DNA from: a virus
Length of the DNA stretch: 34,183 nucleotides
IMG/VR virus record: IMGVR_UViG_3300037189_018001
Span: 1-34,183 of that record
Reading direction: 5' to 3' (one strand)
The notes below the pieces were generated by a model. The model was not told the DNA's origin. It searched no databases and saw only the letters and a list, made by a program, of their open reading frames with translations. This document shows, piece by piece, positions 13,749-34,134 of this stretch; within the stretch, counting starts at the first letter, position 1, and each line of letters starts with the position of its first letter. The position numbers and the translations under genes were made by a program.

Positions 13749-14129
13749 TTAATCTTTAAATGTTGTTATTGTTAACGTTTCTGACGAAAGATCTGGCTCA
13801 TAAACGATATAATTATTCTCAGCTGTCTGTGACACCCCCAAAAAACCATTTGTGAACTCAATATTATTATCCACGGAACCCCTGTTAGAATTCTGCGTGT
13901 AGACTTCGCTAGTTTCGTTAACTTCTGTATTATCATAATATTTAATAGTTGGTATGGTCTGCCCCGTTAAAGTGTTAACATCAAAACCGCTCATTTGCTG
14001 GTAATTGGTGTTATCGATTAGTGAAAAATAGGCAACGGTATTCTTGAAACCTCTGTTAACAAAAGCCTCTCTACCTCTATCTGTAAGGTATATCTCAAAA
14101 GTATACTTATTTCGTTTAATAAATCCCAT
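13749..14129 (-). CDS. Small tail protein with tail-collar-like N-terminal module
   Basis: 126 residues. Residues 9-45 (YTFEIYLTDRGREAFVNRGF, then YFSLIDNTNYQQM) repeat the module LTxxGRxxhxxxG...FxhxD seen at the start of the 908- and 81-residue proteins. The rest is strand-like and Asn/Thr-rich, ending SSETLTITTFKD. Its ATG overlaps the stop of the 908-residue gene by one base (TAATG), so both products are probably made in linked amounts. Likely a short paralogue that keeps only the attachment end of a fibre-type protein. Confidence 0.8.
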   Translation of the reverse strand: MGFIKRNKYTFEIYLTDRGREAFVNRGFKNTVAYFSLIDNTNYQQMSGFDVNTLTGQTIPTIKYYDNTEVNETSEVYTQNSNRGSVDNNIEFTNGFLGVSQTAENNYIVYEPDLSSETLTITTFKD

Positions 14130-16855
14130 TAGAAATCAATTGTTGCTTGTAGTACTAACATATCAGAATTATATTTTCTAGTTACTGGTTCTGAAAATTT
14201 ACCAGTAGCCACAACAACATTATTACTATCATAAATCGCTATCTCAGTGAACGCGACTTTATCTTGATCAGCATTGAATGTTGGGTTCTGTGACACCGTA
14301 AACTGGTTAGGTAAAACATTACAAGTTATTTGTGTTTTATATATGGTCGCTTTTATATCCGTCTCGATATTACCATAGAAAAACACCTCATCACCAAACG
14401 TAAGTTTATCTGTTTCAGTAACTAAAGGTAAACTGATATGATCAGATAAAAGATAGATATCAGTCTCACTATTGTCAAGTATATATTGATCAATATTTAC
14501 TCTTAAAGCTGCTATCGTCTCCTTCGTTAAAACGTTTGTTGATACAACCTGTCCAGCACCAGAGTTATCTAAATAGAATATAGTTATTTCACTACCTTGT
14601 GCTGGTGTAAAGTTTAATTCAACACGTCTATCGTCAATAGTTTCATTTGTTACAAATACACCATATGTTGCTGATGAAAGTAACATACCTTTATAGAACA
14701 ACCACACCGTTGAGTTATTTGGTTGTTTATTTAATTTAAGCGACACCCTATACGGTGCAACTGATGATTTATATATTGGGTCAGCGTTAGTATTAGAGTT
14801 AATTGTAGCCAATGATGGTACGGTAATAACCTGTTTAATTGTTTTAGCTGTTACACTAGTACCTATTAAGTAGTAAATCTGTAATAAATCCCCAGAGACG
14901 CCATAACCCTGACCAAAAACAATAACACTTCTGTCATTTGGCCCAGAGATACCACTTGACGCTGGGTATAAATAATAATCACCGTCAGATAACGTATCGT
15001 TTGAAGCTTCTTTTTGAACTGTACCGTTAAATATAACGATAACCTCACCAACTTGTGTCTCCCCCAACTCAAAAGCATCGAACGTTGACAAGTTTATTGT
15101 GGGGTGTGTTGTTAGTAAATCATTTTGGTAATCGTAAATATCCGCGTGTAATTCAAACTCAGTACCATTTATCTTCATAACACCCGTTACACAACCGTTT
15201 GTACCCAAATACTCACTAACTTCGACATAAGACCAGTTTGTTGAATCTGGTTTTATAGATGTTTCAGCTTTTTGCCATAAAAGGTATATCTGATTTGTTT
15301 TAAAACCAGTCCCAGTTGTATCATTATAATTCTTTAAAAAATTAAACTCACTATAATTTGGGTCTGATGTCTTTTTGTTAAATTCGAATAACACATCCTT
15401 AGGTTTATCCGTATCATTGTAAATCATCGTGTAATCCTCACAATGCATACCAGTAACACCATTTGTGTCGGCAAATAAGTATGTCGCAAAAAAGTATTCA
15501 CCTGGTTGTACAGACCCTATTGTACTAGTGTTACCACAAATACCTGGTTCAGTTAAAGTTAAAATAGGTTTTGGTAACGTCCAGTTTCTATTCGCCTTAT
15601 ATGACAACACTGATAATAACTCAGGGTCCTCAATTACAATAACTTTTTCGTCTATAAAAACTTTACCAACAACATTTTTATCAGTTTCCTGATCAACTAA
15701 GTCGTAATAATTTGAAATGCTTTGACCAAGACCTAACTCAGCATTAACCGTCAGTGATTTTAACTCTGTATCAGCAACAAAAGTATAACCAAGTGTTGTT
15801 GGTGTACTTGTAAACTGTTGTTTATGCCACATTATATAAGGTATTTTTAATTTAAGTGTTGATCTATAAAAACCCTCACCATAGAAATTTGAAACTGTGT
15901 TGTTTGTATAATGTATAATACCTATTTTAGATTTTTGGTTATATTGGTTGTATCTAATTGCGGCGCCGAGGTATGTACTTGATGCGGTGTCGTATTTAGA
16001 TTTCTCACTTACTGGATCCAAACCAATAACATCCTCAATGTTAATAATATTCATATTCCATACAGGGACATCCAATTCCGATTGTGTGTTATTATTGGAA
16101 AAATCCAATAAACCACCCTGCCAATAGGCTAATGGTGTTTGGCTATCGTAATAATCTTTTATAGTATTCTTACCTGGATAAACAAACGCTGTTAAATTAC
16201 CTGAACCAACAGGTAAATCCCTATCAACAATAACCGTTATTGTTGTACCAGTTGTGATACCAGTTAATGTTTGATTATCACCAGAGTCAGCTGTTGTAAC
16301 GGATTCAATAGAATACCAAAAATACTGTACTGGTTCTGTTATTTCAACAGATTGTGAATAGGTTGCGCCCGTCACATAATTTTCACTTTCATATTTAAGG
16401 AATAAATAATCTCCTGGTTTTAAGTTAACGTAATCAACGTTTTTTGAGCTACCTGTGGTAAATTCAAATGTTAGTGAGTTTGTTGAGCCGATTGTAGTCC
16501 CCTGGATATTATATAAACTAGCCAAATCAATAGTCGGATGTACAGTTGTACCTGTATATTCAAAAAAACCTCTTTCAATAGCTGAGGTATAAACCTCATT
16601 AGGTATTGCGTTTACAAGTGTGATTGGGTTTAATGTGTTAACACCATCGGAACTAACTGGATAATTTATGGCAAGCGTGTTATCAAACGGTCTCATTACA
16701 TTAACATTAACCACATCATCGGTTGTATAATCCATCTCAGAATCACCCAAACCAAAATATGTAAAATTTAATGTACCTTCAGCTAAATTTCTCCTACCAT
16801 TATTCGTCAATTTTACATTAACAAGTGGGTCATTTTTCTTAATTATATAGCTCAT
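14129..16855 (-). CDS. Large tail fibre / collar-like structural protein
   Basis: 908 residues. The N-terminus has the module VKLTNNGRRNLAEGTLNFTY followed by FGLGDSEMDY (residues about 13-42), which resembles the tail-collar fibre N-terminal domain of P2-like phages. The C-terminus has FTEIAIYDSNNVVVATGKFS and the following EPVTRKY, the matching C-terminal motif. Between them lie some 800 residues of Thr/Asn/Gly-rich beta structure with repeated TGTT loops and no transmembrane segment or long coiled coil. This is the only protein here with both modules. It is separated from the giant wedge gene by 28 bases and coupled to the next gene by a one-base overlap. Likely a fibre or fibre-network protein attached to the wedge; a baseplate role is inferred. 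Confidence 0.8.
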   Translation of the reverse strand: MSYIIKKNDPLVNVKLTNNGRRNLAEGTLNFTYFGLGDSEMDYTTDDVVNVNVMRPFDNTLAINYPVSSDGVNTLNPITLVNAIPNEVYTSAIERGFFEYTGTTVHPTIDLASLYNIQGTTIGSTNSLTFEFTTGSSKNVDYVNLKPGDYLFLKYESENYVTGATYSQSVEITEPVQYFWYSIESVTTADSGDNQTLTGITTGTTITVIVDRDLPVGSGNLTAFVYPGKNTIKDYYDSQTPLAYWQGGLLDFSNNNTQSELDVPVWNMNIINIEDVIGLDPVSEKSKYDTASSTYLGAAIRYNQYNQKSKIGIIHYTNNTVSNFYGEGFYRSTLKLKIPYIMWHKQQFTSTPTTLGYTFVADTELKSLTVNAELGLGQSISNYYDLVDQETDKNVVGKVFIDEKVIVIEDPELLSVLSYKANRNWTLPKPILTLTEPGICGNTSTIGSVQPGEYFFATYLFADTNGVTGMHCEDYTMIYNDTDKPKDVLFEFNKKTSDPNYSEFNFLKNYNDTTGTGFKTNQIYLLWQKAETSIKPDSTNWSYVEVSEYLGTNGCVTGVMKINGTEFELHADIYDYQNDLLTTHPTINLSTFDAFELGETQVGEVIVIFNGTVQKEASNDTLSDGDYYLYPASSGISGPNDRSVIVFGQGYGVSGDLLQIYYLIGTSVTAKTIKQVITVPSLATINSNTNADPIYKSSVAPYRVSLKLNKQPNNSTVWLFYKGMLLSSATYGVFVTNETIDDRRVELNFTPAQGSEITIFYLDNSGAGQVVSTNVLTKETIAALRVNIDQYILDNSETDIYLLSDHISLPLVTETDKLTFGDEVFFYGNIETDIKATIYKTQITCNVLPNQFTVSQNPTFNADQDKVAFTEIAIYDSNNVVVATGKFSEPVTRKYNSDMLVLQATIDF

Positions 16856-16883
16856 TTTTTGTTTTTATATAAATATTGTTATT

Positions 16884-19800
16884 TTATAATTTTATGTAAT
16901 CTAAAGGATCGACCGTACCTAATTCTATGAAATTAGCACCCTCAAAGTCTAACTTAACAACCCTATCCTCATAAACATCTTTAAGTTTAATTGTTCTTGT
17001 AACCATTTTACTAACTGCTGTCTTGGTTGCTGTAATATATGTGTTATCAATACCGACATCACTTGTGTTATATAAGGTATAACCATCAACATTACCAGTT
17101 TTAAATTTCGTTAAGTTTTTATTTGTATCGTAAGTAACATCTATTGTTATAGAATCCCCTTTAACAACAGAGATTGTATCATCGATAGTTTGATTTTTAC
17201 TTAAGATTTTTGTTATCGTTGCCATGTTAGGGCCAGATATTTTAACGGTCATCTTAGTCGCGCCGAATTGGTTAACAATTAATCTAACATTAGGGTTATA
17301 AGTCGAACTGGTTAATACTGGTAACGCGAAATCAGTTTGCTTCCTAGGGTATAATTGTGTTAATGAAGTTAAATCTGCGTCAAACAACACACCAAATATT
17401 ACTTTAGCGTGATGTCCACATGGGTTTGTTACTGTTAAACCACCTATAAACTCACCTGTTAATGGTAAATTATTATCATCTCTTTCATAGTAATAATCCA
17501 TTATTATATCCGAACCAGATTTTCTGAAACCAACATTACCATACTCAACAACATCTCTTACGTTAGTATTTTTAGCGTCAAATAACTTATTAACACCAGC
17601 TAATAATTTGTTATTTTTAGTTGATCCACTGAAAGAGTTTTCAGCAAAACCTGATTTTAAAATTAAGTTACTATCAAAGAAATATAAACTATTTTTTGTG
17701 GTTGTATTTAAAGATTCTACCGTACCCTCATAAATCTTAACCTTAGTTCTATCTTTATGATACGTGAATTTTTTAACTAACATAAAATCTAGTTCTTCCC
17801 AACCAGAAATATGTGGGGTTGGTGCTGTAACGATTATGCTACTATAGTCACCCAATGCTCTATATAATGTGTTTCTATGTATCGTGTATTTCCTACTATT
17901 ATAAGCATATGTTAAATTATAAGGGTAATCAGCATCAAAATCATAGATACTATCATCGTCACTATTTGTACACAACCTCTCAAATAATGGTTTAATATTG
18001 CTCGAGATATTTGTGTCTGTTAAGGTTATCCCTGGTATCACTTTATTGGTAACAGCTGTATAGTTATTCTGTGTTAAATTCGTATCCAACGTGTAACCCG
18101 TGTATAAACCACCAGTTGTACCAGAGTATTGTAAATTACCAGTTGCCCCTGTCATAACATAATAGGCGATCATATCAACACCATCTAATTGCCCAGCTGT
18201 TTCAGTTGTTGGTAAATAATTTGGTGCCATATCTGCAATTACCACATTAGTAAATCCAGTTAATTGTACATAATATCTATTACCAGTTGAGTCAGTTTGT
18301 GTTGGTATTAGATTTTTAAACCTATAGGTTGTTGGTGCGTATGAAAACGGTTCCCCTGATGAGGTAATCGGTATAGAACCACCAACATCGTTTTTATTGT
18401 AAAATAAATTACTATCAGTTGCACCCGTTAATCTTAATTCATGCCAAAGTGAACCAGTTGTTGGGGCGCCTGTACCTGTGTTAGTTTTTTTAAGCCAATA
18501 ACTAAATGATGTGGGGTCCGCTGATGATTCATAATAAACAAATGAACCAGCTGGGTAAGTGTTACTTGAGTCGTATGTTACTGATTTATTATAAACGTAC
18601 TCATAATATGTGAAAGCCGACCCAGATCCTGGTACTTTAATAATATCACCTAAATTAAGTTTTTCTGTTGGTAACCCACTTAATATTACTGGCTCAACAT
18701 ATTTATAAGGCCTAATATTTGTTTTTACAGCCGAATACCTGTCAAATTTGTTGTAACCCAACGGTGTAAAAGATTTTAGGTCATATTTTTCTATTGGAAT
18801 AAATGACGCTCTGGCACCATTTGGGCGGTATATAGGGTGTATATCCATTGAATATGTGACACCCGTTTGTTTTCTTAAGTGGTTTGGTGTGATATCTTCA
18901 ATACAAACATAAAGTCTTTCAACTGTTTTTGTTTCAATTGTTGTACCCGTTGCGGTTTCAACAACAACATCATAATCTGTTAATTTAACTTTAACTATAT
19001 CGTTAATATGATAATTGTTAATGTTAGCGCTAAAATATGGAACAACCGCTAAAATGTCTTGGTATAGTTGTGTGTTATAAACAGCGTTTTCTTTTTTCCA
19101 ATAACCAGTTGCGGTTTTATATCTAGTTTTGGCGATAATACTATCGTCAATATTAGCACCGTAATCGATTAAATCATAATCAGTAAAACCATCATCATAA
19201 CCAATGAAATCGATTGAAGTACCTAAACTAGTATTAACAGCCTCATTTTTTACATATCTCAAGAAAGGAAAGTCTAATTTACTTAGTTTTTTAACTTTAG
19301 GTTTTGGGGTTTTACCGATTATTATGTTTTTTGTTAAACCAATATCCTCAACCTCTTGGGGTGTATTCCCAATGTAATTATTTGTTGAAGTTATTGTGTA
19401 AGACTTTTTAATTCCAGTTTGTGATTGGTCAGGCGGTAATAATGACGCCGCGTCTTTGGATCTAACTGTAACCTCAAAACTAAGTTTGTCATTATTAAAA
19501 CCCTTTTCATAAACAGAAACATTACCAATGACACTACTTGATTTGAATTTTTCGTAGAATTTACCGAAAATTAACCCAAAATTATTTGCCTCATCATATG
19601 ATTGTGTTATTACTGGTTTAGGTCTAAATTTATAGGTGTCTAACACGTTGTCTGTTTTAAACATGTTATGATCAACCTGGAAATTATTATTAACACCAAC
19701 TGGTTCAATTGATATTACATCATCAAAATAGTGACCATCAGCGACTGACCTACCCCCGTTAAAATAAACCCTGAATCTTGGGTCGTCTATATCAGAATAA

Positions 19801-22800
19801 TTTGTTGGTTCTATGTAATCGTAATCTAATTCTTGGTATCTTTTTAAAGTACAACCATATACCTCTGGATTAACCACTAAATAAAGTCTCGTATCGACAG
19901 GGAATATACCTTGGTAGCTTATACTACTAATTCTATCTTGCGCGCTATCTGAACCATTTAAAGTAAAGCTCTCGTCATGATAAACTTTACCAAATTGGTC
20001 CACTAATTTAATGATTACTATCTGGTCGATTGATAATTCAGTTTCGAAATATAAATCAGCTTCAAATTTTAAAAACGCATTTTGTTTTACTAGATAATAA
20101 CCGTCAGATAAACCAATGTTTGGATTATTTACATTAAAGTTTTCATTTAATGATTTAATGTCGATATAGTTATCTTTATCCGCTTCTAATTCTAACTCTT
20201 CGATTAATGTGTTGACAACCACCTCATCACTTTGTGGTGAATAGAATGGCCCTATTTTAGTCTCATCCAATGAGTAGAACCCATCAAAAGTTACTGTGGA
20301 TGATTCGCTAATATAGAGTTCATCGTTTAATACGTTATTTACAACTTTGTATGTCTCAGTAGGTGTTGCACCACTGAAAACCTGATATAAGTATAGATTC
20401 TTACTTAAATTAATAGATACGATATCACTAAAAGGATTTACTCTTAACCTTTTAATATATGCCGAATCAATGTGCATATACGGATCAGTTTTAGTTCTGT
20501 CTGTATACGATTGATATAAACCTGGTACAATTGTGGTTGTTGTTGTACCAGTTGGCGTACCCGCTACAGTATAACCTGTTACGGTTGCTCCAGTTACTAG
20601 ATAATTAACTGATGATTTTGTCACAACATCACCAGAATAATAAACATCACCATTTGTCCAAGTCGTTGGTTTTCTATAAGGGACAATCCAATCACCAGAA
20701 GCACCATATACAGCATCGTCTGGTTCGGTAGTTGCTGTGTTTTTAGAATAACCGTAGTATTTTGATTGTTCAATTGTTAAGTATTGGTTTGTCTCATCGT
20801 AGTAATCTGTGATACCAGATGTGGCCATGTTGATTGTTAACCCACTATAGTTATAATAACAAGTGTGGGGTTTTGGTACTGGGCAAATAAAATCAACGTT
20901 AGCCGCTAAATAAGCGTGGCCAAGAGACACACCTTCAAGATAATGAGTCTTCTCAGAATCAATTAATATACCCGCTGGTGTATCTTTAAACGTTATCGAA
21001 CTAGCGTCTGTTGTTAGTGGTATTAACTCATAAACATCGAACGCGTTTGGTCTATTATTATAAAGTCCAGCGGTAAAATCTGTGATTATTACGTTATTGT
21101 TTGAATTGAATAAATTCAAAATTGTTAATGTGTCTGTTGTAAATGTTAAAATCTCAGAGTATGTTGTGGTACCTGTTGAAGCTCCAATACTACCTAATAA
21201 AATACCTGAAGTTGTTCCATCATAAATCTCTAAATCATCGTCACCATTTACAGTAAATTCGACTAGGTATTTACCAGGACCGTTTGGTAATGATACGGCT
21301 ACAGTAGTATTAGCACCATATATTAAACCTAAGTTGTTGGGTGATACATATGGTGTTGGATCGGTACTGATTACATACGTGCTACCAAACCCATACATTT
21401 GGTTTGTGTTTAATCTGTAGAGGTTATTTTCATAAACAACAAATACACCTTTTCTATCACCAGATCCAGTGTTTACGTTACCGCCGTAAATCGAATCATC
21501 ACCATAATTTTCATTTTCATCCCATCTATAAATCTCAACGCTATCACAAGCATCCTCAATACTATAATAGAAACCGAAATATTCATTAATGGTTGGGTCA
21601 TAACCTTTATAGTTCTTACCTTTGTTACCAACAAGCGTAAAGCTAGATGATTCACCCATAAAAGGATCCTTTTTGAAACCTCTTGTGTCAACAGGGTTGG
21701 TTGTACCTTGATTAACTGGTCTTTTCGCTTTATCCTGGAATTCCGATCCATCGGTACCCAACCAATTAACATTGTTATTTAAACCGTGTTTATAAACAAA
21801 TTTATTGTCTAAAAATTTACTGTTTTGTATTTTCTTACCCGCGTTTAATATTGTTGTTGCTGGTGTAAACTGTTGTACCAACTTCACCCAAGAAGAATCG
21901 AATTTATTTAAGAATTCCAAACTTTTAGTGTTAGTCACTGGGTTACCAGTTAAAGCTAAATAATCATAATATATTTTACTTAAACTAGGGTATGTTTTAA
22001 TCGTTTTTCTATTATCTGGTTTAATGTAGTTGTCCATTGACTGCTGTAAAAACTGGTTGAATGTTAAATCACCAGCATTTATTTCAGGTACAATTCTAAA
22101 ACTTAGATCAGAATTTAATTCAACCGAATTTCTATTTAAATAACGGTATAATGTAAAATCAAAAATCTTATCAGATGAGATATAAACCTCTAATTCTTTA
22201 GAGTTTACAACCAATCTAGAATCATCTTCATAATATTCGGTATAACCGATACTATCTTCTGACAATCTAAGTACTTGGGATTCCGAATAAACCCAAGATT
22301 TTACGTTATCAACAAATCGGTCCATGTTAAATATTGGTGTGCCGCTTTGTACTTCATAAGCTTTTATATATGAGGTACCAAAATCGTATGGCCCGAAATT
22401 TCTACCATCATTTGCAATACTAAAACCAGCTTCCTGGTATTTAACTCTAGACGGTACTGTTGGGTAGCCATCTTTATCAAAAGGGACTAAAGTCAATAAT
22501 ACGTTATCACTATAGTTTGATCCGTATAACTCGTAAGATTTTTGTGTATAGTCAACTTTGTTTCTCGCTATGTAAACATATTCGTTAACCTCAAATATTG
22601 AATCTGGTAAACCAACCAAATTCAAAATAAACTCAATTGATTTTCTAGTACCCTTTGATTTCCAAAGGTGGTATGAATTTATGAAGATTCTTCTCCATAA
22701 CTCAATGTCAATATCAACTGGTTTAAGACCTGGTTCAATTCTCAAATCTTTAATATCAAATAATGATTCAATTAAGGTGTTCTCATCTTCAACATTGTAT

Positions 22801-24233
22801 GTTTCAAAACCGAGCATATTACCATAATTCTTAACTAATAAATCTGGTATGTTTTCAATTTTATCATAACTAAGATTTGTCATAAATGTGATACCATCAA
22901 CATATTTCTTAACGGTATCAAAATTTTTACCGATTAAACCAAACATTAGGTTTATTCTCCTATCTTCGGTATCAAATTCTTTTAAAGAATCCGTTGTTAA
23001 AAATCTTGAGATTAAATTAGTTTTTGTAGCATCAAAATCATCTGAAATACCATTTAACTTCGTTAGGTATTTATCAAATTCATCACTAAATAAATCAATA
23101 TTAACTTCATCATATTGTGGGAAAACAAGGGTTTCGTTCATATTTAATTCAACCCCTTGGTCTGTAAATTTCTTATATCTAATTACGCTAATATATTTCT
23201 TTTTATCGTAATTATAATTCAGTAAAAACTGGCCCATGTCAGACAAATTAGTCTGAAAATCATCGTACTTCTGCATTTTAGGTTTTACCCAAAATGTTTT
23301 GTTAACTGTTTGGTTTATATTAACGTCATTACCAAATGGGTTACCCTCAACCGTCAAATATATACCATTTTCATTATCATTATATGAGCTAGGTAGTGTC
23401 GCGTTTAATATCTTATATTCAACCTGATTATAGTAAACAACATAATCGGTATAAGTCTTCGAAAAGTTTCTCAAAGGTGTTATATTAACATCATCTGTTA
23501 CGGTTGTACCAGTTGCTGTATATTCAATCCCAAATGGGTTACTAATATTACCCAAGTTGATTTTAAATTGCGCCGTATCTTTGCTACTCGAATAGTTGTA
23601 ATCCGAAACAGTTGGGGACGCTAAACCTAATACGTTTAATCTTAAACCAGCTGGGAATTTTTGTGTAATCTCAATAATAGTGTTTTTTATCGTCTCCTTC
23701 ATTGGGGCGTATAAAACATAGTTCTGTAATTTCTTTTTATCAAAAAGAACTCTAACCGTTATATTATCTTCGATTTTTTTATTAACCTGTTCAACAGCTG
23801 TTTGGGTGTTGTTTTTAGCTGGGTTTAAATTGTTAATGCTTTCGGCAGTATAAGCTTTATCACCACCAGATAAACCAACAACTTTACCAGGCGCGCTTTT
23901 TCTTGTAACTGATGTTGATAGGGAAAAATTACCTAGCGTAAAGAAGGGGTCGCCAGCTATTTCATCTTTAGCGTTAGCAAATTGTAAACCAACCGCTTTA
24001 TCACCAATATTACCAAATCCAGAAATCTGGTTTTGGCTTCCCTGGGATTTATAATACCTAAGCGCCTGTTCATATGCTAAAAAGGATGAACACGGTACGT
24101 ATTTATTCTCACCGTTAATGTTATATGTTCTATAACCAGCACAGCCAAGATCAACAGCAGCCGCCATCGCAGCTTCAACTGTATCATACAAGTGTGCTAT
24201 TAAAGGTGTATTTGTATAACTAAGATTAGCCAT
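16884..24233 (-). CDS. Giant baseplate protein: gp7/gpI-like wedge region fused to fibre-like modules
   Basis: 2449 residues, more than twice T4 gp7 (1032). The N-terminus holds a Cys pair, LGCAGYRTY (C31) and KYVPC (C48). At about 505-550, ELWRRIFINSYHLWKSKGTR and the following SIEFILNLVGLP match the hallmark helix-KGT-helix of P2 gpI-type tail proteins, the counterparts of T4 gp7. At about 775-815, WVKLVQQFTPATTILNAGKK ends this core. The remainder is a chain of beta-rich segments, for example a jelly-roll-like stretch near 985-1060 (KYLVEFTVNGDDDLEIYDG) and another near 1370-1480, with many TGTT loops, ending in Ig-like strands. It would join gp6 in the wedge and may carry receptor-binding or fibre-anchoring parts. 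It overlaps the preceding 297-residue gene by 8 bases. Confidence 0.85.
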   Translation of the reverse strand: MANLSYTNTPLIAHLYDTVEAAMAAAVDLGCAGYRTYNINGENKYVPCSSFLAYEQALRYYKSQGSQNQISGFGNIGDKAVGLQFANAKDEIAGDPFFTLGNFSLSTSVTRKSAPGKVVGLSGGDKAYTAESINNLNPAKNNTQTAVEQVNKKIEDNITVRVLFDKKKLQNYVLYAPMKETIKNTIIEITQKFPAGLRLNVLGLASPTVSDYNYSSSKDTAQFKINLGNISNPFGIEYTATGTTVTDDVNITPLRNFSKTYTDYVVYYNQVEYKILNATLPSSYNDNENGIYLTVEGNPFGNDVNINQTVNKTFWVKPKMQKYDDFQTNLSDMGQFLLNYNYDKKKYISVIRYKKFTDQGVELNMNETLVFPQYDEVNIDLFSDEFDKYLTKLNGISDDFDATKTNLISRFLTTDSLKEFDTEDRRINLMFGLIGKNFDTVKKYVDGITFMTNLSYDKIENIPDLLVKNYGNMLGFETYNVEDENTLIESLFDIKDLRIEPGLKPVDIDIELWRRIFINSYHLWKSKGTRKSIEFILNLVGLPDSIFEVNEYVYIARNKVDYTQKSYELYGSNYSDNVLLTLVPFDKDGYPTVPSRVKYQEAGFSIANDGRNFGPYDFGTSYIKAYEVQSGTPIFNMDRFVDNVKSWVYSESQVLRLSEDSIGYTEYYEDDSRLVVNSKELEVYISSDKIFDFTLYRYLNRNSVELNSDLSFRIVPEINAGDLTFNQFLQQSMDNYIKPDNRKTIKTYPSLSKIYYDYLALTGNPVTNTKSLEFLNKFDSSWVKLVQQFTPATTILNAGKKIQNSKFLDNKFVYKHGLNNNVNWLGTDGSEFQDKAKRPVNQGTTNPVDTRGFKKDPFMGESSSFTLVGNKGKNYKGYDPTINEYFGFYYSIEDACDSVEIYRWDENENYGDDSIYGGNVNTGSGDRKGVFVVYENNLYRLNTNQMYGFGSTYVISTDPTPYVSPNNLGLIYGANTTVAVSLPNGPGKYLVEFTVNGDDDLEIYDGTTSGILLGSIGASTGTTTYSEILTFTTDTLTILNLFNSNNNVIITDFTAGLYNNRPNAFDVYELIPLTTDASSITFKDTPAGILIDSEKTHYLEGVSLGHAYLAANVDFICPVPKPHTCYYNYSGLTINMATSGITDYYDETNQYLTIEQSKYYGYSKNTATTEPDDAVYGASGDWIVPYRKPTTWTNGDVYYSGDVVTKSSVNYLVTGATVTGYTVAGTPTGTTTTTIVPGLYQSYTDRTKTDPYMHIDSAYIKRLRVNPFSDIVSINLSKNLYLYQVFSGATPTETYKVVNNVLNDELYISESSTVTFDGFYSLDETKIGPFYSPQSDEVVVNTLIEELELEADKDNYIDIKSLNENFNVNNPNIGLSDGYYLVKQNAFLKFEADLYFETELSIDQIVIIKLVDQFGKVYHDESFTLNGSDSAQDRISSISYQGIFPVDTRLYLVVNPEVYGCTLKRYQELDYDYIEPTNYSDIDDPRFRVYFNGGRSVADGHYFDDVISIEPVGVNNNFQVDHNMFKTDNVLDTYKFRPKPVITQSYDEANNFGLIFGKFYEKFKSSSVIGNVSVYEKGFNNDKLSFEVTVRSKDAASLLPPDQSQTGIKKSYTITSTNNYIGNTPQEVEDIGLTKNIIIGKTPKPKVKKLSKLDFPFLRYVKNEAVNTSLGTSIDFIGYDDGFTDYDLIDYGANIDDSIIAKTRYKTATGYWKKENAVYNTQLYQDILAVVPYFSANINNYHINDIVKVKLTDYDVVVETATGTTIETKTVERLYVCIEDITPNHLRKQTGVTYSMDIHPIYRPNGARASFIPIEKYDLKSFTPLGYNKFDRYSAVKTNIRPYKYVEPVILSGLPTEKLNLGDIIKVPGSGSAFTYYEYVYNKSVTYDSSNTYPAGSFVYYESSADPTSFSYWLKKTNTGTGAPTTGSLWHELRLTGATDSNLFYNKNDVGGSIPITSSGEPFSYAPTTYRFKNLIPTQTDSTGNRYYVQLTGFTNVVIADMAPNYLPTTETAGQLDGVDMIAYYVMTGATGNLQYSGTTGGLYTGYTLDTNLTQNNYTAVTNKVIPGITLTDTNISSNIKPLFERLCTNSDDDSIYDFDADYPYNLTYAYNSRKYTIHRNTLYRALGDYSSIIVTAPTPHISGWEELDFMLVKKFTYHKDRTKVKIYEGTVESLNTTTKNSLYFFDSNLILKSGFAENSFSGSTKNNKLLAGVNKLFDAKNTNVRDVVEYGNVGFRKSGSDIIMDYYYERDDNNLPLTGEFIGGLTVTNPCGHHAKVIFGVLFDADLTSLTQLYPRKQTDFALPVLTSSTYNPNVRLIVNQFGATKMTVKISGPNMATITKILSKNQTIDDTISVVKGDSITIDVTYDTNKNLTKFKTGNVDGYTLYNTSDVGIDNTYITATKTAVSKMVTRTIKLKDVYEDRVVKLDFEGANFIELGTVDPLDYIKL

Positions 24234-25119
24234 TTCCTACTATGTTGTTTAACGTCTTTGTTGAGTCTATATTATTTCTTCTTCTTCTCACCTCAAATAA
24301 TTTTTTATCCGTGGCGTCTTTAATTTCGTATAAATCGTATTGCGCATATATATTGCCATCAAAATCATACAATGTGTAGATACCATCTTCCATTGATTTT
24401 GTTTGGTCCGAGTACAATGCAATTGCTAAGCTTTCCGCATCATAATTAACTAATTCAACCTCAAGTATTTGCGGTGTGAAACTAGTATTTGTTAAAATAA
24501 TATTTTGACCTTTAAAGCCGATAAACGGTGTTGCTGTTGGTTTGAAACTAGGGGCCGCGTTAGGTGTTACGGTACAGAATAATAAGCTACCCACATTATT
24601 GTAAGTATATTTTATTGTTTTAACTGAGCTATTAGGTGTATCGACCTGAACTGGTTCAACAATAAATGATGATGTGATCACCCTATATAAGTTTTGGACT
24701 TTACTACCATTGTCATTTAGATATTCAACTCTATAACCATCTAAACCGTTATTACTGAATTTACTTTTAAAACCATTGGGGGCTGAATCAATATTCAAAA
24801 CAAGACCTTTAATATCAGGGAAAGTAGCTAACTCAGCACAATCCTCAACCTGAACCCTTATTTGGGCGGGTCTAATGTAAACCGTGTAAAAACCTCTCGT
24901 GTTAAAAACACTCTTAGGTAATTCAAGGTTATACATACCCCCTAAAACCTCTAATGGGTTTGTTGGGTCAAATACTGGTTTTATTACATCAGTACCGTTT
25001 AATTTTGTAACTTTTTGTGCTTCAGTTGAATTTCTATTCTTACTGTATAAAACAATAACCTCTATATCTGAAGGGTCTACATCAGCTGGTCTTTTAACAC
25101 CATATACACCTATTCCCAT
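24226..25119 (-). CDS. Baseplate-region structural protein of unknown function
   Basis: 297 residues. The start MGIGVYGVKRPADVDPSDIE is followed by beta-rich sequence (IEVIVLYSKN; FYTVYIRPAQIRVQVEDCAE) and the chain ends in a basic stretch (KLFEVRRRRNNIDSTKTLNN). There is no membrane helix and no enzyme motif. T4 has gp8 (334 residues) near gp6 and gp7 and the size is close, but I see no alignable signature, so that equivalence is speculative. It starts 2 bases after the 258-residue gene's stop and overlaps the giant wedge gene by 8 bases, so it is most likely made and assembled with it. Confidence 0.78.
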   Translation of the reverse strand: MGIGVYGVKRPADVDPSDIEVIVLYSKNRNSTEAQKVTKLNGTDVIKPVFDPTNPLEVLGGMYNLELPKSVFNTRGFYTVYIRPAQIRVQVEDCAELATFPDIKGLVLNIDSAPNGFKSKFSNNGLDGYRVEYLNDNGSKVQNLYRVITSSFIVEPVQVDTPNSSVKTIKYTYNNVGSLLFCTVTPNAAPSFKPTATPFIGFKGQNIILTNTSFTPQILEVELVNYDAESLAIALYSDQTKSMEDGIYTLYDFDGNIYAQYDLYEIKDATDKKLFEVRRRRNNIDSTKTLNNIVGNG

Positions 25120-25121
25120 AT

Positions 25122-25898
25122 TTATTGATCTTTAAAATTGTATCCTCTTGTGTTTATTTTGTAATATCCAAAACCTGTTTTTGTTAATTCATTTAAGTCT
25201 TTAACATTTTTTAGTTTTCTCATTGGTTCAAAGGCATTATTTATGCCCCTGTCTATAAATACTTCTGATAAAACTTTTGGTTCGTCAATTGTGTCTGAAT
25301 AATAATTTAATGTTGGTGTTACCTTCTCATCAAGATTATTTCTCATGAATTTAAATATAGTTGTTTTGTCAGAATTATCAACATAAAAAACAGGGTTTGG
25401 TGTGTCTAAATATAAGACATACTCAACGCGTTCTTCGGATTCGGATATAATCATCCCAACTATGTTTGTACCACTTACCTCGATTCTTTTACCAACCCTA
25501 ATATTTTTAGGGGCTGGAACCTTTCTATCACTTAAGTCGGCGAAACCTTTTGTCGCTTCTTTACCATATAACTTCAACGCCTGTTCCCTGGTAAAACTTA
25601 AATCAAGTAAAGAAAATTTACTATCCGTTTTACCAACAATAAAATATTTTTCCGATGAATCCAGAAAATGTTCTTTAACTTCGCTAAAAGTTGAGATATT
25701 TTTGTCGTTCGTGACGTATTTTGCGGCTGGTTTAACCATCTCGTTAAACGGATAAATTTCGGATAACGTGTTCTCGATAGCCTCAATTTTAGGGTCATCA
25801 TAATACGGTGTTATCAATGATCCGTTGGGGTCTATTAAAGACTCAACATAAAGATTAACCAAGTAATCCGTATCATCTTGCATTAAAATGGTTGTCAT
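25122..25898 (-). CDS. Baseplate-region structural protein of unknown function
   Basis: 258 residues, acidic and mixed alpha/beta, unlike the Thr-rich fibre proteins to its left. Segments worth noting are KNIRVGKRIEVSGTNIVGMI (about 134-155, strand-like) and the C-terminal FIDRGINNAFEPMRKLKNVK followed by GFGYYKINTRGYNF. The ATG overlaps the stop of the 700-residue gene by one base (TAATG). No enzyme motif, membrane helix or Cys pair is seen. Context makes it a baseplate or wedge-assembly component; no family could be named. Confidence 0.77.
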   Translation of the reverse strand: MTTILMQDDTDYLVNLYVESLIDPNGSLITPYYDDPKIEAIENTLSEIYPFNEMVKPAAKYVTNDKNISTFSEVKEHFLDSSEKYFIVGKTDSKFSLLDLSFTREQALKLYGKEATKGFADLSDRKVPAPKNIRVGKRIEVSGTNIVGMIISESEERVEYVLYLDTPNPVFYVDNSDKTTIFKFMRNNLDEKVTPTLNYYSDTIDEPKVLSEVFIDRGINNAFEPMRKLKNVKDLNELTKTGFGYYKINTRGYNFKDQ

Positions 25899-28000
25899 TA
25901 TTTTAAATTAATTTTAAGTGGTATGGTTATTTTTGTCATATTACTTGTCCCAACATCTTCTTTGTATAGATTAACTTCAATATTACCAGTTATATCCAAC
26001 TCTTTAATTGTACCAAAATGATACAACGCCCCAGCCCCAATAACCAAATCAATTGTTACGATCACCTCTTCGTTAGTATTAATCTTTGGATCCAAAGCCT
26101 CGATTATTAGTATTATACCATCTTTTTTATCCGTTGGCTTCGTTTTTAATAAACTATCTATGTCAGATGGGGTGTAGTTATTAACCTGTGACCTATCAGA
26201 GCTTAAATAAACCTTATTTGCGATCATATTGGCGAAATTTATCTGATGGGTTGGGTTATTGATTAATTGTGTGTAAGCATATGATGTTGTTGTGGTGTTG
26301 ATACTGGAATAATCGTTTGACTCCTCTTCAGCGTTATCGGTTTTATAATCAGACCAAGCTGTTTCAAATGTTGTATAATAATCATCGTATGTTTTAACAA
26401 TACTTTTTTTCGGTATGACGCAATATTCTGTTGAAAGGCTTAAACCGTAGTCTGTTTGAATGTCATGTTCTAGTGAACCATAACTCGATAAATCAATTGT
26501 TGGTTCATTTGATTTAAAAATCAAATCTTTTATAACAAAAGAATCGATAATATAGTTACTAATGTCTTGTTTATTTTCAATCCTAAAAGAACCTATTGTT
26601 CTTTTGAATGAATCTATATTAACATTAACACATTTATTTATTTTAGTTTTTAATAAACCGATTGGTTTAATATTTAAACTGGTAGATTTAAACATTAAAT
26701 AACCTTCTAATGAACCTTCAAAATTGTAATGATTTATTTCACCAATTGGTATGTAATCGCCAGTATACAAAGTTTCAGTGTAGTCTAGTGTTTTTTTATA
26801 TTCAACATAATCTGGATCATTAATTAAAGCGTTGGATAGTGTTTCATATTTAGTATCGGTTAATGTTAATTCCCTTTTTATATTATTTGTTGATAATAAA
26901 AGGTCACCATATTGTCTTGGATCTGTTGGTTTTTGTAAATCGCTTGGTTGATCGTTTAAAACAGGGAAACTAGCCCAATAATCATCGTAGGCGAATTCAT
27001 ATAAATCAATATGATCTGTTTCCAAATCATATTCACCCGTTCTATCGTTATAGTCAAATACCGTATACTTTTTTGTCTGGTAATCTAACTCATATCTTAA
27101 GTATAATTTTTTCTGGTCAAAAGTTTCAACATCTTGTAACCATTTCTTTTTTATATTATTTTTTGTTGATGGTATAAACTGTATTTTTTTACCGTTTAAA
27201 GCATCCCAAAAATAAAATTTAACATAAAAATCGGATTTAAGGTAATTCTTAAGAAAGAAAAAAGAGTAACCATCGACACCTTCTGTTAATTCAAAAACAG
27301 GTCTTTTTTGTTGCACCCCAGAGATTGATCTCTCGTTAAACAGATAACGGTCGGAGACATAAATTGGTATTGTTGTTATTCTTCTTTGTGTTTCAACGTT
27401 ATTATCATCATAAATCTCTAATAACAAAAACGAACCATATGTGTATGTTTTATTATTAAAACCATATTTTAAATTACTCCACTGATCAGATTTATCCCAA
27501 AAAGGGAATGTAAATGTGTTGTAAAAATGTGGGCGACCAGATTTTGCTGGGTATTTCTTTCGTAGTTCGGCCATAGGGTCAATAACAACACAAGGTTTTT
27601 CCTCATTAATTTGTATCGGTGACAACTCAACCTCATTATCAAATTTTACCGCTCTCAAACCATCTGAACCCCTGACCTCAAACAACTCGTTTTTAACTGA
27701 GGTGTTGTGTGTCGCGACTAAATTTTTATGGTACGTGTCAAAAGTTTCTTCAATGTGCTTAGATATCTCAGGAATATCATCTTCCTCAATGTATCTTAGA
27801 AAAAATAAATCAACTTCAATTCTATCATAATTAGGTTTAAATTCAGCACTCTCCAGATTAACAATCTCATTTATGTTTGCCAACGATTCAGTGTTAAGGA
27901 GTTTACTAAAAACAAACTCCCTATCTGATGGACTATCTTCAGAACCAATTAATAAATTAGTTGATAAACTAACATCTTTTTTAAATATTTTTTTTAACAT
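25898..28000 (-). CDS. Large baseplate-region structural protein of unknown function
   Basis: 700 residues. Not recognised. It starts MLKKIFKKDVSLSTNLLIGS and is rich in Tyr, Asp, Asn and Phe, with aromatic strand-like segments (HFYNTFTFPFWDKSDQW; YSFFFLKNYLKSDFYVKFYF) suggesting large beta domains. Its C-terminal 90 residues (GIILIIEALDPKINTNEEVI and following) look like an Ig-like end domain finishing TKITIPLKINLK. It overlaps the 555-residue gene by 7 bases and the 258-residue gene by one base. Four genes from 29661 to 24226 are so tightly joined that a common assembly is likely, probably the outer wedge. Confidence 0.78.
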   Translation of the reverse strand: MLKKIFKKDVSLSTNLLIGSEDSPSDREFVFSKLLNTESLANINEIVNLESAEFKPNYDRIEVDLFFLRYIEEDDIPEISKHIEETFDTYHKNLVATHNTSVKNELFEVRGSDGLRAVKFDNEVELSPIQINEEKPCVVIDPMAELRKKYPAKSGRPHFYNTFTFPFWDKSDQWSNLKYGFNNKTYTYGSFLLLEIYDDNNVETQRRITTIPIYVSDRYLFNERSISGVQQKRPVFELTEGVDGYSFFFLKNYLKSDFYVKFYFWDALNGKKIQFIPSTKNNIKKKWLQDVETFDQKKLYLRYELDYQTKKYTVFDYNDRTGEYDLETDHIDLYEFAYDDYWASFPVLNDQPSDLQKPTDPRQYGDLLLSTNNIKRELTLTDTKYETLSNALINDPDYVEYKKTLDYTETLYTGDYIPIGEINHYNFEGSLEGYLMFKSTSLNIKPIGLLKTKINKCVNVNIDSFKRTIGSFRIENKQDISNYIIDSFVIKDLIFKSNEPTIDLSSYGSLEHDIQTDYGLSLSTEYCVIPKKSIVKTYDDYYTTFETAWSDYKTDNAEEESNDYSSINTTTTSYAYTQLINNPTHQINFANMIANKVYLSSDRSQVNNYTPSDIDSLLKTKPTDKKDGIILIIEALDPKINTNEEVIVTIDLVIGAGALYHFGTIKELDITGNIEVNLYKEDVGTSNMTKITIPLKINLK

Positions 28001-29661
28001 TTTTCGTCAGTATAAGTTTTAAACGGATCTTCTAATTTATTGTCATTATTATCACCAAATAAATCATTAACAATATCTCTAGTGTAATCGTCAACAGAAT
28101 TAAGTGAATCTATATTAGATATATCATTAACGTTTAATTTATATCTTTTTGTTTTGTTTTTTTCGGTTAAAACGTTAAATAAAAACCTATCATAGACATA
28201 TCTAGCACCATTTAAAAATGGGTAATCTAATACAACACCATTATCATCCGAAACACCTAGATCTAAAATATCTCTCCAGATATATTTGTCAGTTTTTCTA
28301 CTATAAACAGCGTATTTTGGTATAAAAGAATTTGAAACCGAATCTTCGACATATGTTGATTTTAATTTTAAATCAATCTTTCTAAAAGGAACGTATTTGA
28401 ACAATACGAAATTGTGTATGAAATTATGGTGAACAGATGAAATTAATTCTTCTGTTAAGTTTTCAGCTGAATATTCGTAAATACCGATGTCAAAAATATT
28501 TTTAACATCTGGTTTATCGGATACTGTTGATTCGGAAACGTTTGCTATTCTATTAATACCTTCACCAGGGTTGGTGTAATCAATTAAAGGTTCGAAGTTA
28601 GATTCAACCGTACTGAATATTTTTTCAGATGTCGCGCCATTCTTAATAACACCCAAGTAACATTCAGTTATGGGTTCATCCTTATTATCTAATAACCCAG
28701 TGATATCAAACTCTTCTTCAAAATAAAAATTATATAGTGGTTCCTCATATAGATTTAACGAAAAACCACATTGATCAAATGTTGTTAGGACTTGTACAAC
28801 TTCCGCTTGTTTAACGTAATATTCCAAAACTTCATTGTCAACAACCTTTGATATTGAAAAATTTGCACTGAATAGTCGATATGGTGTAGGCCTCTCAGCT
28901 TTTAATATGTTGATTAACTCGCTATCATCATTTGTTGTCTGAACACCTCTAATAACACCTGTAAATTGGTTAGGGGTTTGTTCTGGGGCGGCAAACAGTG
29001 TAGCGGGTGATGGGGTAAATGTGTTTAAGTTAAAATCGTTTACCTTTTCTTGGTGTAAATTTTTAGCGGATATCTTAAAATCTATTGAAATATTTTTACC
29101 GTCAACGTTTGTAATAAAATATAAACCATCTTTTATCCTACTATCTTTTGATCTAATATAAACTTGGTCCCCAGCATTAAAATTATGCCCGTAATTCATT
29201 AAAAAGCTGGCGTTTTGTTGCCCAGTTTTTAATGTTGGTTGGATTAATGACGCTGGTAAACCCTTACTTAGGTCAAGTTTATAGCTTAAATCTTTTTTAT
29301 TCTCATCGGTATAAGTTATAACATACTCTTTTTTACCTTTTTGGTTAACATGTTTAATCGGTTTACATAAAACAATAGACCAGTTATCTGGTGTAAATTC
29401 AATAACTTTTTTATCGATGTTTAATTTGGTATTTCTATAGTAAGCTTTTTTAATTATAATAGGTGAGATCGTTCCGTAAACTTTATATTTTTCGTTTTCA
29501 TTTTTTTCTTTAACGAATTGGTCGTCCTGAGATATATTTGTAAATAAATTATACTCATCCCTGATCTTACCTGGTTGTTCTAATATTAACCTAGTTTTTA
29601 AAGTCTCGTTTTTTGAACCAGAAAACTTTTTAGAGCCCAATACTTCTACAATATCACTCAT
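27994..29661 (-). CDS. Large baseplate-region structural protein of unknown function
   Basis: 555 residues. Not assigned to a named family. Recognisable blocks include FDITGLLDNKDEPITECYLG (about 325-345, a strand-turn-strand unit) and, in the last quarter, FKYVPFRKIDLKLKSTY (about 420), YIWRDILDLGVSDDNG and LDYPFLNGARYVYDRFLF (about 460-500). The latter are rich in aromatic and Gly residues and look like a folded conserved core. The final 50 residues are acidic and Asn-rich. It overlaps the 748-residue gene by 8 bases and the 700-residue gene by 7. Virion location is inferred from position between gp6 and the gp7-like gene. Confidence 0.78.
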   Translation of the reverse strand: MSDIVEVLGSKKFSGSKNETLKTRLILEQPGKIRDEYNLFTNISQDDQFVKEKNENEKYKVYGTISPIIIKKAYYRNTKLNIDKKVIEFTPDNWSIVLCKPIKHVNQKGKKEYVITYTDENKKDLSYKLDLSKGLPASLIQPTLKTGQQNASFLMNYGHNFNAGDQVYIRSKDSRIKDGLYFITNVDGKNISIDFKISAKNLHQEKVNDFNLNTFTPSPATLFAAPEQTPNQFTGVIRGVQTTNDDSELINILKAERPTPYRLFSANFSISKVVDNEVLEYYVKQAEVVQVLTTFDQCGFSLNLYEEPLYNFYFEEEFDITGLLDNKDEPITECYLGVIKNGATSEKIFSTVESNFEPLIDYTNPGEGINRIANVSESTVSDKPDVKNIFDIGIYEYSAENLTEELISSVHHNFIHNFVLFKYVPFRKIDLKLKSTYVEDSVSNSFIPKYAVYSRKTDKYIWRDILDLGVSDDNGVVLDYPFLNGARYVYDRFLFNVLTEKNKTKRYKLNVNDISNIDSLNSVDDYTRDIVNDLFGDNNDNKLEDPFKTYTDEKC

Positions 29662-31900
29662 TGTCTACAAAATAATTTTTTTCTATTGATTTTAAAGCGT
29701 TTGCACTATCCCAAAGACCGAAGTAATAGTAATTAGCTTTATATTTATTTGATATTTCCGCGTTAAACTCTGACGGTGGTATACTACCTGTATAGAAACC
29801 GTAAGACGTGTAAACCTTATTATCGATTAACCCATCAAGATCGTTTGTTATATCATAAATTGAAAATTCCATCACAGGGAATTTATTCTGGTCGTTAGTT
29901 GATGATATAAATGGTCCTAACGTGTAAATGTCACTATAGGCCTGTGTGTATCTTCTGTGAGTTCCACCAGAACTAACTGTTGCGTTGGGTTTTTTGGCTA
30001 ATTCAATAGCGAATAGGCTAAGGTTTAACCCGCTTACCGAATTATCACCAAAGTCATATGAAGGTGCATCCCCATAATAGTTCTCACCCGTTGTACCGTT
30101 AATAAAATCATCACCCCTAAATATATCGGTATAAACACTGCCAGAGTTTTTACCGTCTAAACCAACACCAATCCCTAAATGATACTCCAATTCCTTAACA
30201 TCCTCATTGTAAGATAAATCTTTAGGTATTCTTATTATATTAAGAATGTTTGTGGGGAAAATCATTTGTGGGTTGTAGTCTTTGTCATTTAAACGATTCC
30301 AGTCAAACACATTAATATCAACATCAAACTCATATTTAGGGATAATCGCCGAGCCAATAACCTCAACATTTGTTAACTGTGGTACGTTTCTCTTATCCAC
30401 TGGGAAATTCCACGGTATATCCTTAAAATCGTTAGTTTGTGGTAAATAATTAATATAATCGCCAGATATCGAAACATTCGTATCCTTATGTTTATTATAT
30501 TTTGTTTTTATGGTGTAAAACTTTCTTTTTCTGTTGATTATGTCATACTCAAATAAGCCAGTTGTTGTCCCTTCCCAACCACCTGTAAATGGGTCGCCGT
30601 TTACCGAAGAAGGTACCCTAATACCTGGTGTTGGTGATAGCCTATAGTAACCCCATGGGTATCTAGTTTGCCAAGCTTCGGCAATGTCATACATCTCAAA
30701 AGCATAATAACCCTTAGTTGGTATGCCATTCTCAGTATCATCCGTTGGAACCAAATCACCGAATTGGTTTAGCTTATAGTACTCCATATACATCGGTAAT
30801 GATACCCTAAAAACACCAGTATGTTTTTCAGCTTTAAACGCGCCTATCCTGACCCTACTACCTGGGGTTAGTTTATCGTCTAATCTATATACAACAACCA
30901 TCAATTCTTGTAATGGCCAAATGTCACCAGTGTCTCTACCTTTATCCGAATCAAAACCTCTTAATTCTAGTGGTATCTCCGTTTGATTTTCATCCAACGG
31001 TTTGTTAATCCCGTAGTTTTTTTTGACTTCAAAGGCCCCAGTTACCGAAGATAACCAACCAAAAAATATAGCTGTCGGTGTGTATTTATAGTTTATCTTA
31101 AAATCACACCTTGTTATACCAACATCATGCTCTTCATCATCACCCCAAAAAGAAGCTACGTTAACCTGCTTAATCTCGTTAAAGATATTAGGCATTTGGT
31201 TAATGTTTGTTTTAACTTCTACATCGAAAGAATCATTTCCTTTATATATAAAATTAGGTACTTTATTAGGATCGTTATTGTCTTTTGCACTTGTCGCATC
31301 TCTCAGATCCTTTATGTTACCGTATTGAGTTGTTGTTTCAACCAAATCATTCGCCGTGATCTCAAAACTCTTGGTATCAAACAAATCAAAATCCATCATA
31401 ATATTGTGTGAACCAACAGGTACGCCAAATATCATATAGTCACCAGAATCATTTGTGATTGTGGTATACTTATAATATTTTTCCATTATCTCCAAATATT
31501 GGGGGTAATGGGTTAAATCGTTTATTGTTGGTAGGTTACCAATAGCCCTATGACTAGGGTTTTGGTTTCTTACTCTTGGTAATAAGTTATATCTAACACC
31601 ATTAGGGAACTGGTCATTAACCGTTTCAAACGGATATAACTCCATAATTTCAGGTCGTTCTTTATCCACTGGGTCAACTGGGACAAATATGGATACCTTC
31701 GCATTTTGCAAACCATACCCGTTAGTGGTCTGTACTCTACCAACTATTACACCAAAATCCGATGAAGTCTTTCTGTAGACGTCTGAACTCGATATCTTTA
31801 AACTTAAAATCTCTAAATTATCGAAGTCGTCCTCTAGATTTACTAATATCCTTTCATCAGGTGTATCTTGATTTAAAACTATTTTAATGTTTTTCTCCAT
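29654..31900 (-). CDS. Baseplate protein with carboxypeptidase-regulatory-like (Ig-like) domain
   Basis: 748 residues. Residues 50-73 (GVIVGRVQTTNGYGLQNAKV and following) and 144-172 (YTTITNDSGDYMIFGVPVGS and following) together match the transthyretin/CarboxypepD-reg type beta sandwich, with an unusual insertion of about 70 residues between strand pairs. Such domains are common in Bacteroidetes surface proteins and mediate binding or scaffolding. The rest is Asp/Tyr/Gly-rich beta sequence with no enzyme motif. The gene starts 2 bases after the gp6-like stop and overlaps the next by 8 bases, so it belongs to the wedge operon. It could sit where T4 gp7 or gp8 sits, but it shows no gpI-type core. 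Structural role fairly sure, exact identity not. Confidence 0.82.
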   Translation of the reverse strand: MEKNIKIVLNQDTPDERILVNLEDDFDNLEILSLKISSSDVYRKTSSDFGVIVGRVQTTNGYGLQNAKVSIFVPVDPVDKERPEIMELYPFETVNDQFPNGVRYNLLPRVRNQNPSHRAIGNLPTINDLTHYPQYLEIMEKYYKYTTITNDSGDYMIFGVPVGSHNIMMDFDLFDTKSFEITANDLVETTTQYGNIKDLRDATSAKDNNDPNKVPNFIYKGNDSFDVEVKTNINQMPNIFNEIKQVNVASFWGDDEEHDVGITRCDFKINYKYTPTAIFFGWLSSVTGAFEVKKNYGINKPLDENQTEIPLELRGFDSDKGRDTGDIWPLQELMVVVYRLDDKLTPGSRVRIGAFKAEKHTGVFRVSLPMYMEYYKLNQFGDLVPTDDTENGIPTKGYYAFEMYDIAEAWQTRYPWGYYRLSPTPGIRVPSSVNGDPFTGGWEGTTTGLFEYDIINRKRKFYTIKTKYNKHKDTNVSISGDYINYLPQTNDFKDIPWNFPVDKRNVPQLTNVEVIGSAIIPKYEFDVDINVFDWNRLNDKDYNPQMIFPTNILNIIRIPKDLSYNEDVKELEYHLGIGVGLDGKNSGSVYTDIFRGDDFINGTTGENYYGDAPSYDFGDNSVSGLNLSLFAIELAKKPNATVSSGGTHRRYTQAYSDIYTLGPFISSTNDQNKFPVMEFSIYDITNDLDGLIDNKVYTSYGFYTGSIPPSEFNAEISNKYKANYYYFGLWDSANALKSIEKNYFVDNE

Positions 31901-33717: not shown

Positions 33718-34134
33718 TTATATTGTTATAGATAGTTTATCGCTTGTTTGGAACGTTTTAGTTGTTATTGTGTAATCAAGGTTGATTCTTATTTGATGCT
33801 CCCTTTCAGTGTCGTTTTTATACTGTCCCTCGTCACCAACTCTGGTAATAATAACATCATTTAATTTAAGGTTAGGTATGTATTTTTCCACAGCATCCTG
33901 GATTTCTGTCTCAATTTTACCTAAAGTGATATCATCCAAAGGTTCAAACACATATTGATAAAGATTGGTGCCGAAATCTGGTAAAAAATACCTAGAACCC
34001 TTTCTTGTTAATAATAAGTGAATTAGCATGGCCTTAACCTCTGACTCAGGTACTGTTGTTAAACCAACATAATCCCCAACATTCGAATTTACGAATGGGA
34101 AATCTATACCAAATGTTTGTTTTTTTATTGCCAT
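33718..34134 (-). CDS. 25: Baseplate wedge protein, T4 gp25 / P2 gpW family
   Basis: 138 residues, matching T4 gp25 (132). Conserved blocks are IDFPFV (10-15), the long helix EVKAMLIHLLLTRKGSRYFL (about 32-51), PDFGTNLYQYVFEP (52-65) and a terminal alpha/beta part with KIETEIQDAVEKYIPNLKLN. The family is often labelled 'gp25-like lysozyme', but its known role is structural: it joins the wedge core and nucleates sheath assembly. The upstream 49 bases to the window edge are AT-rich and contain ATAAAAT and ATATTTAT, as in other gaps here. Preceding gene and true operon start are outside the window. Confidence 0.93.
   Translation of the reverse strand: MAIKKQTFGIDFPFVNSNVGDYVGLTTVPESEVKAMLIHLLLTRKGSRYFLPDFGTNLYQYVFEPLDDITLGKIETEIQDAVEKYIPNLKLNDVIITRVGDEGQYKNDTEREHQIRINLDYTITTKTFQTSDKLSITI

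Follow-up and report, generated by a model that had tools for sequence, protein, structure and literature searches.

In AlgoCIS, the gp7-like part of Alg12 is a hotspot of evolutionary re-engineering that contacts or binds fibres, and Alg11, a wedge component of elongated shape, forms a spike cage with its two carbohydrate-binding modules (CBMs) (PMC8894135). Baseplate wedge 3 of Vp4, Gp119 (831 amino acids, aa), contains CBM folds and binds cells, whereas its relative Gp177 of Deep-Blue (341 aa) is without CBM folds (PMC11406892). The gp7 counterpart of XM1 has 242 residues (PMC10457771). Here we analyze a 2449-aa protein encoded by the IMG/VR virus record IMGVR_UViG_3300037189_018001, whose whole stretch of 34,183 bases (GC 33%) is referred to as the window. 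An initial annotation, made from the sequence, had described its gene as a gp7/gpI-like wedge core fused to fibre-like modules. With somewhat more belief than doubt, we regard the protein as a gpI-type subunit of the wedge in a contractile-tail baseplate, carrying a built-in arm at the periphery that probably binds host-surface glycans. Its anatomy, consisting of a conserved core, a boundary and lineage-specific arms, is well supported.

The gene is a single open reading frame (ORF) of 2449 codons with an ATG start on the minus strand (Table 1). An open frame of this length at the GC content of the window, together with end-to-end relatives at 37-80% identity, places the gene far beyond chance, and the 7.3-kb gene of the initial annotation was exact. 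The full-length relatives are 2352-2687 aa long; the identity range holds where a single alignment spans the protein, and L024, L016-L018 and L020 align in two or three pieces. An alternative code or a frameshift was needless, as the frame reads open as it stands. No tandem DNA repeats were found within 16000-25000.

The core can stand alone. Closed core-only ORFs of 709-712 aa were found in seven loci (L076-L079, L081, L085 and L100). Measurement of three tail-less relatives placed the end of the core match at window residue 820-822, with 3-6 residues left to their C-terminus, so that the core/arm boundary predicted near residue 830 was right within about 10 residues. When pieces of the window protein were searched against 33 distant loci (L002, L072-L103) at E 1, piece 421-820 was detected in 33/33 and pieces 1-70 and 821-2449 in 0/33, several of these loci being cut by contig ends. 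The extension at residues 1-70 (LGCxGYRTYxINGxxKYVPC) belongs to the core gene of 13/13 loci searched in the window's clade; of the distant loci that lack it, a few are cut at the 5' end.

What follows the core differs widely. The post-core lengths of 14 proteins were 3-6 residues (three proteins), 111 (L129), 152-163 (three), 529-544 (three) and 2086-2196 (four). BLASTP comparison among 13 arms or inserts, including that of the window, gave matches at E 0.01 within a class only (the 155 class, the 540 class and L072/L073/L082), with the limit that unlike arms may share a kinship beyond the reach of sequence. The arm of L094 contains a DUF5122 beta-propeller (E 1.2e-72, six stretches). In L129 about 1,500 residues are inserted in the core after residue ~592, and in L092 two ORFs, with inserts, together encode the core. 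When mapped on a core tree of 42 rows, the eight arm classes need seven changes, which is the minimum (shuffled mean 22.6, with 0/200 shuffles as low); the tree was rooted at the midpoint, some of its long branches meet, and rows L093 and L094 are identical. Since eight classes require just seven changes, the arms are stable within clades and differ between clades. A true gain or loss of an arm is shown by the tail-less class and by the 155/2100 pair, which forms one branch (99/97). Because relatives carry the core alone or with quite different arms, the core resembles a socket on which phages grew different arms.

The core contains a short stretch, residues 511-552, that matches a gpI family profile (hhalign score 41.0, E 1.4e-4, probability 53%), in agreement with the gpI-like signature proposed at 505-550. 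The profile was built from 11 gpI proteins because the single P2 gpI sequence, although matching at the right place, gave only an E of 0.2; of 408 relatives of P2 gpI in viral_contigs, the 80 that were listed resembled each other at 99-100% and were left unused. The match falls on the GT that is invariant in the KGT motif. Shuffling the gpI columns 100 times gave at best 22.4 and shuffling the core columns 100 times at best 28.6, so that no shuffle reached 41.0. Profiles of 13 other window genes scored 10.7-18.8 against gpI and 15.4-24.0 against the core, and the arm scored 17.7 against gpI. The core half 471-830 alone scored 40.6 and the half 71-470 scored 9.8. The core gene also shares a contractile-tail baseplate cluster with gp25-type and gp6/gpJ-type wedge genes. 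The kinship of the core to gpI is supported by a short profile match.

Scans of viral_contigs yielded 11, 15, 80 (the best of 194 confirmed) and 32 loci, many of which are the same contigs fetched again. In an annotated collection of 50,697 phage records, with the window and L024 proteins as queries, only LR756508 was found, by its core only, and no match to the arm was obtained. A broad core profile matched proteins of Microcystis phage Mel-JY01 (1336 aa, E 1.2e-14), LR756508 (1400 aa, 1.8e-14) and Flavobacterium phage immuto (1265 aa, 3.2e-8), with E-values that refer to the small set searched. The core homologue is the second gene after the gp6-type gene in LR756508 and the third in the cultured phages immuto and Mel-JY01, and gp25-type genes are present there too. 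PDB sequence searches with the core and arm profiles gave nothing significant (best E 0.16). A scan of genome_contigs returned one relative, L129 (9884-18016), a 2711-aa member with its ~1,500 residues inside the core on the Prochlorococcus single-cell contig QCKH01000004 (83.8 kb), which is probably a phage contig.

The arm of the window protein comprises 1,627 residues, mostly of beta structure in the models, and is collinear within the window's clade. Its mean identity to close relatives per 50 residues is 0.32-0.76, compared with 0.56-0.89 for the core, and its well conserved blocks are 1701-1850 and 2151-2300. One CBM-like module varies in number. A profile of residues 945-1078, seeded from six members, was searched against 18 clade members and 14 distant proteins. 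The seed members (window, L010, L015, L026, L007 and L011) have one copy each, L016 and L020 have three, and L041 has about two (the second at E 0.004); at E 0.1 none was found in the other 9/18 clade members or in the 14 distant proteins. All nine bearers group on a single branch (100/100), which is most simply explained by one gain and later tandem increase. The conservation of this module in close relatives is low (0.38-0.51). A further hint, CBM_5/12 (PF02839), was seen in L128 at 24.2 bits, under the cut-off of 26.2, and aligns to window residues 1191-1223. It is shown by 3/17 arm members (best E 0.0024), the window's own arm not being among the three; Pfam reports none in the window protein.

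AlphaFold models were obtained for residues 1-1190 (28 rows) and 1251-2449 (17 rows). Residues 957-1060 are predicted to form a CBM-like sandwich, with Z-scores of 10.1 to BcsB, 8.9 to CBM29, 8.6 to CBM36 and 8.4 to CBM35; the same region matches a Klebsiella phage baseplate-cup chain (Z 8.8). The CBM family is left unnamed because many fold rows tied. In the second model, a TNF/C1q-like jelly roll has Z-scores of 12.7-14.8 over 124-139 residues among the best 50 matches listed, and Foldseek gave 12 matches at E 0.001. Its matches include EDA-A1 (Z 14.8), the central spike petal of phi812 (14.1), the cell-wall-binding domain (CBD) of the A-1(L) short fibre (13.8) and a cyanophage A4 portal-tail chain (13.6). 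For the N-terminal model, residues 957-1059 fill the list of fold matches, so the fold of the core is hardly probed, and no gpI or gp7 structure is among the matches listed. In BFVD the best matches of this model were A0A6J5L8T1 (985 aa, E 7.8e-33) and A0A8S5L9Z8_1, 'Binding domain, N-terminal' (E 8e-16), both with low TM-score.

The string of beta domains that the initial annotation placed after a gpI-type core is, for the most part, seen in the models. The term fibre-like holds in part, as the matches of the jelly roll include the petal of a phage spike and a domain of a short fibre, and one module is CBM-like, but parts of the arm are modelled with low confidence, above all ~830-897, 1623-1710 and 1991-2067. 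The suggestion that the arm corresponds to normally separate proteins found no backing, since the arm is fused to the core in 32/32 loci found with the arm profile and no arm match occurs in the phage collection. The locus scan relied on two peptide patterns, so arms without them would be missed. The idea of stand-alone fibre genes fused to the core was set aside, as no such gene was found in the phage collection or in the arm-profile loci. The view of the C-terminal part as a swappable block applies between deep lineages, where the arm differs, but not inside the window's clade, where it is collinear. In L122 (2-6024) the arm is split between ORFs of 1570 and 389 aa that lie about 150 bases from each other, either because of an assembly error or as a real break.

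How might such a protein work? Residues 71-822 would build it into the wedge alongside the gp25-type and gp6-type proteins, as sequence and synteny suggest, and the remaining 1,627 residues would project from the wedge and form a peripheral arm made of beta modules. Its TNF/C1q-like jelly roll and CBM-like modules would make contact with host-envelope glycans. With one arm per wedge, and six copies per baseplate if T4 is a guide, a ring of weak, many-valued contacts may result, and glycan binding could pull on the wedge and help to trigger contraction. Over deep time, the arm would have been gained, lost or replaced at one junction after residue ~822, or grown inside the core, and within a clade it would remain stable apart from the CBM-like module. 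A bolder proposal, which we consider rather unlikely, is that host recognition is hard-wired into the wedge throughout this phage family. The socket after ~822 would have received, in several lineages, unrelated arms of 150-2,200 residues (CBM/jelly roll, beta-propeller and others), and these, rather than detachable fibres, would serve as the main adhesins.

Several observations weigh against a glycan-binding wedge subunit. PF09684 had no match in the window genome at E 10, the whole window protein hit 0 families in Pfam and PHROGs, and T4 gp7, tried as one sequence, had no hhalign match, which leaves the 'gp7' kinship of the initial annotation without a sequence match. The models are of middling confidence, with a mean predicted local distance difference test (pLDDT) score of 56.0 for 1-1190 and 64.9 for 1251-2449; in the poorly modelled gpI region, residues 501-580, the block means are 39-79. 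Foldseek found no match of the N-terminal model in PDB at E 0.001 (best 1.4e-3). Most other jelly-roll matches listed are cytokines, C1q heads and Bacillus exosporium proteins, and a TNF or CBM-like fold in a model is by itself no proof of sugar binding. For the A-1(L) short fibre, it is reported that stem-CBD binds cells and the CBD alone does not (PMC10966104).

The missing PF09684 and T4 gp7 matches and the shortness of the gpI match would also suit a baseplate protein of another kind, in which the 42 residues resemble gpI by convergence. We find this improbable, as the score is far above the natural and shuffled controls, the match falls on the invariant GT of KGT, and the gene is syntenic with gp25 and gp6. 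Alternatively, the arm may be a scaffold rather than an adhesin, docking separate fibres and tying neighbouring wedges together like the periphery of other baseplates, with CBM and TNF folds that are structural. The arm is collinear and conserved across the clade, including its two conserved blocks, and this fair conservation fits a scaffold equally well as an adhesin; the gp7-like part of AlgoCIS is likewise described as contacting fibres (PMC8894135). The CBM-like module, however, with its 0-3 copies and low conservation, looks like a surface module, and one phage chain among the top jelly-roll matches is the cell-wall-binding domain of a fibre. On balance the scaffold is somewhat unlikely. 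Quite improbable is a cage or skirt around the central spike; Alg11, an elongated wedge component with two CBMs in the spike cage according to the same study (PMC8894135), offers a precedent for such a CBM-bearing extension, but it is likened by description only, and no sequence feature of the window protein points to the spike. We therefore retain the gpI-type wedge subunit with a glycan-binding arm as the preferred reading.

Table 1. Positions of the predicted features in the window.
Feature	Position	Strand	Basis
2449-aa gene, predicted gpI-type wedge core and C-terminal arm	16884..24233	-	ORF and end-to-end relatives
N-terminal extension, residues 1-70	24024..24233	-	Window's clade only
Conserved wedge core, residues 71-822	21768..24023	-	Found without an arm in relatives (proteins of 709-712 aa)
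gpI (Tail_P2_I)-like signature with KGT motif, residues 511-552	22578..22703	-	Profile match
CBM-like beta-sandwich module, residues 945-1078	21000..21401	-	Fold matches (957-1060); 0-3 copies in relatives
CBM_5/12-like motif, residues 1191-1223	20565..20663	-	Alignment to L128, 24.2 bits, below the 26.2 cut-off
TNF/C1q-like jelly roll, main part, residues ~1335-1473	19815..20231	-	Model and fold matches
Strands seeming to close the jelly roll, residues ~2155-2173	17715..17771	-	Suggested by model range 85-920 with ~130 aligned residues
C-terminal beta domain, residues ~2315-2431	16941..17291	-	AlphaFold model
gp25/gpW-type baseplate wedge subunit	33718..34134	-	PHROGs phrog_261, 8.4e-19
gp6/gpJ-type baseplate wedge subunit	31903..33714	-	PHROGs phrog_6, 9.1e-21
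Four more cluster genes (748, 555, 700, 258 aa)	25122..31900	-	Syntenic in relatives, lengths differ there
297-aa gene directly upstream of the core gene	24226..25119	-	Strongly conserved partner
908-aa gene downstream	14129..16855	-	13/13 clade loci searched, L077 and L092

The neighbouring genes vary as well. Five genes lie between the gp6-type gene and the core gene in the window, and two in immuto and Mel-JY01. The 297-aa gene has a homologue of 297-320 aa in 8/12 distant loci listed (E 1e-95 to 1e-124) and no Pfam or significant PHROGs match. The homologue of the 748-aa gene (29654-31900) is 1280-1637 aa long in L091, L092, L094 and L129, where mainly the first ~190 residues are conserved, and that of the 555-aa gene (27994-29661) reaches 1032 aa in the tail-less L077. 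As these homologues are much longer elsewhere, several wedge-cluster genes appear to grow, each in different lineages. The minus-strand proteins of 11726-11971, 13749-14129 and 14129-16855 have similar N-termini (LTxxGRRxLxxG...F.L.D...Y), which may be a docking domain common to all three. When the start of the 908-aa protein was used as a profile, it weakly matched a 111-, 189- or 392-aa neighbour in 3/13 loci (L070, L114 and L128), L070 and L114 being one contig.

Should the arm bind the host, one polypeptide would combine adsorption with the trigger of contraction, and the relay of surface contact to the wedge ring would be directly testable. The family itself provides a natural series, from a bare core to cores with unlike arms, in which the role of a wedge arm could be studied. 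Its phages are almost unnamed in the annotated collections searched, and within a partial coverage of the literature no publication was found that names this protein family in its title or abstract opening. Among the relatives in annotated genomes, immuto gp109 (YP_010114574, 1265 aa) is a core homologue (hhalign E 6e-6) and the third gene after the gp6-type gene, but it is annotated as hypothetical only and did not match the window's arm in the phage-collection search.

Compared with P2 gpI (Tail_P2_I, PF09684), the window protein shares a 42-residue KGT-centred signature and a gene clustered with gp25/gp6-type wedge genes. The P2 protein, however, has 176 aa, whereas here the core alone has ~750 aa, followed by the 1,627-aa arm, with no Pfam hit. 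T4 gp7 (1032 aa) is likewise a large wedge subunit in the same cluster as gp6, but no sequence match was found with the one T4 sequence and it is under half the size of the window protein. Alg12 of AlgoCIS is likened by description only, and gp6 is a separate gene in the window. The Vp4 case is alike in that CBM folds are present in one wedge protein and absent from its relative; it differs in concerning another wedge protein (A511 gp105-like) of Herelleviridae with a much smaller gain. CBM-bearing wedge proteins and a gp7-like part as a hotspot are already described, and the window protein is a large addition to these.
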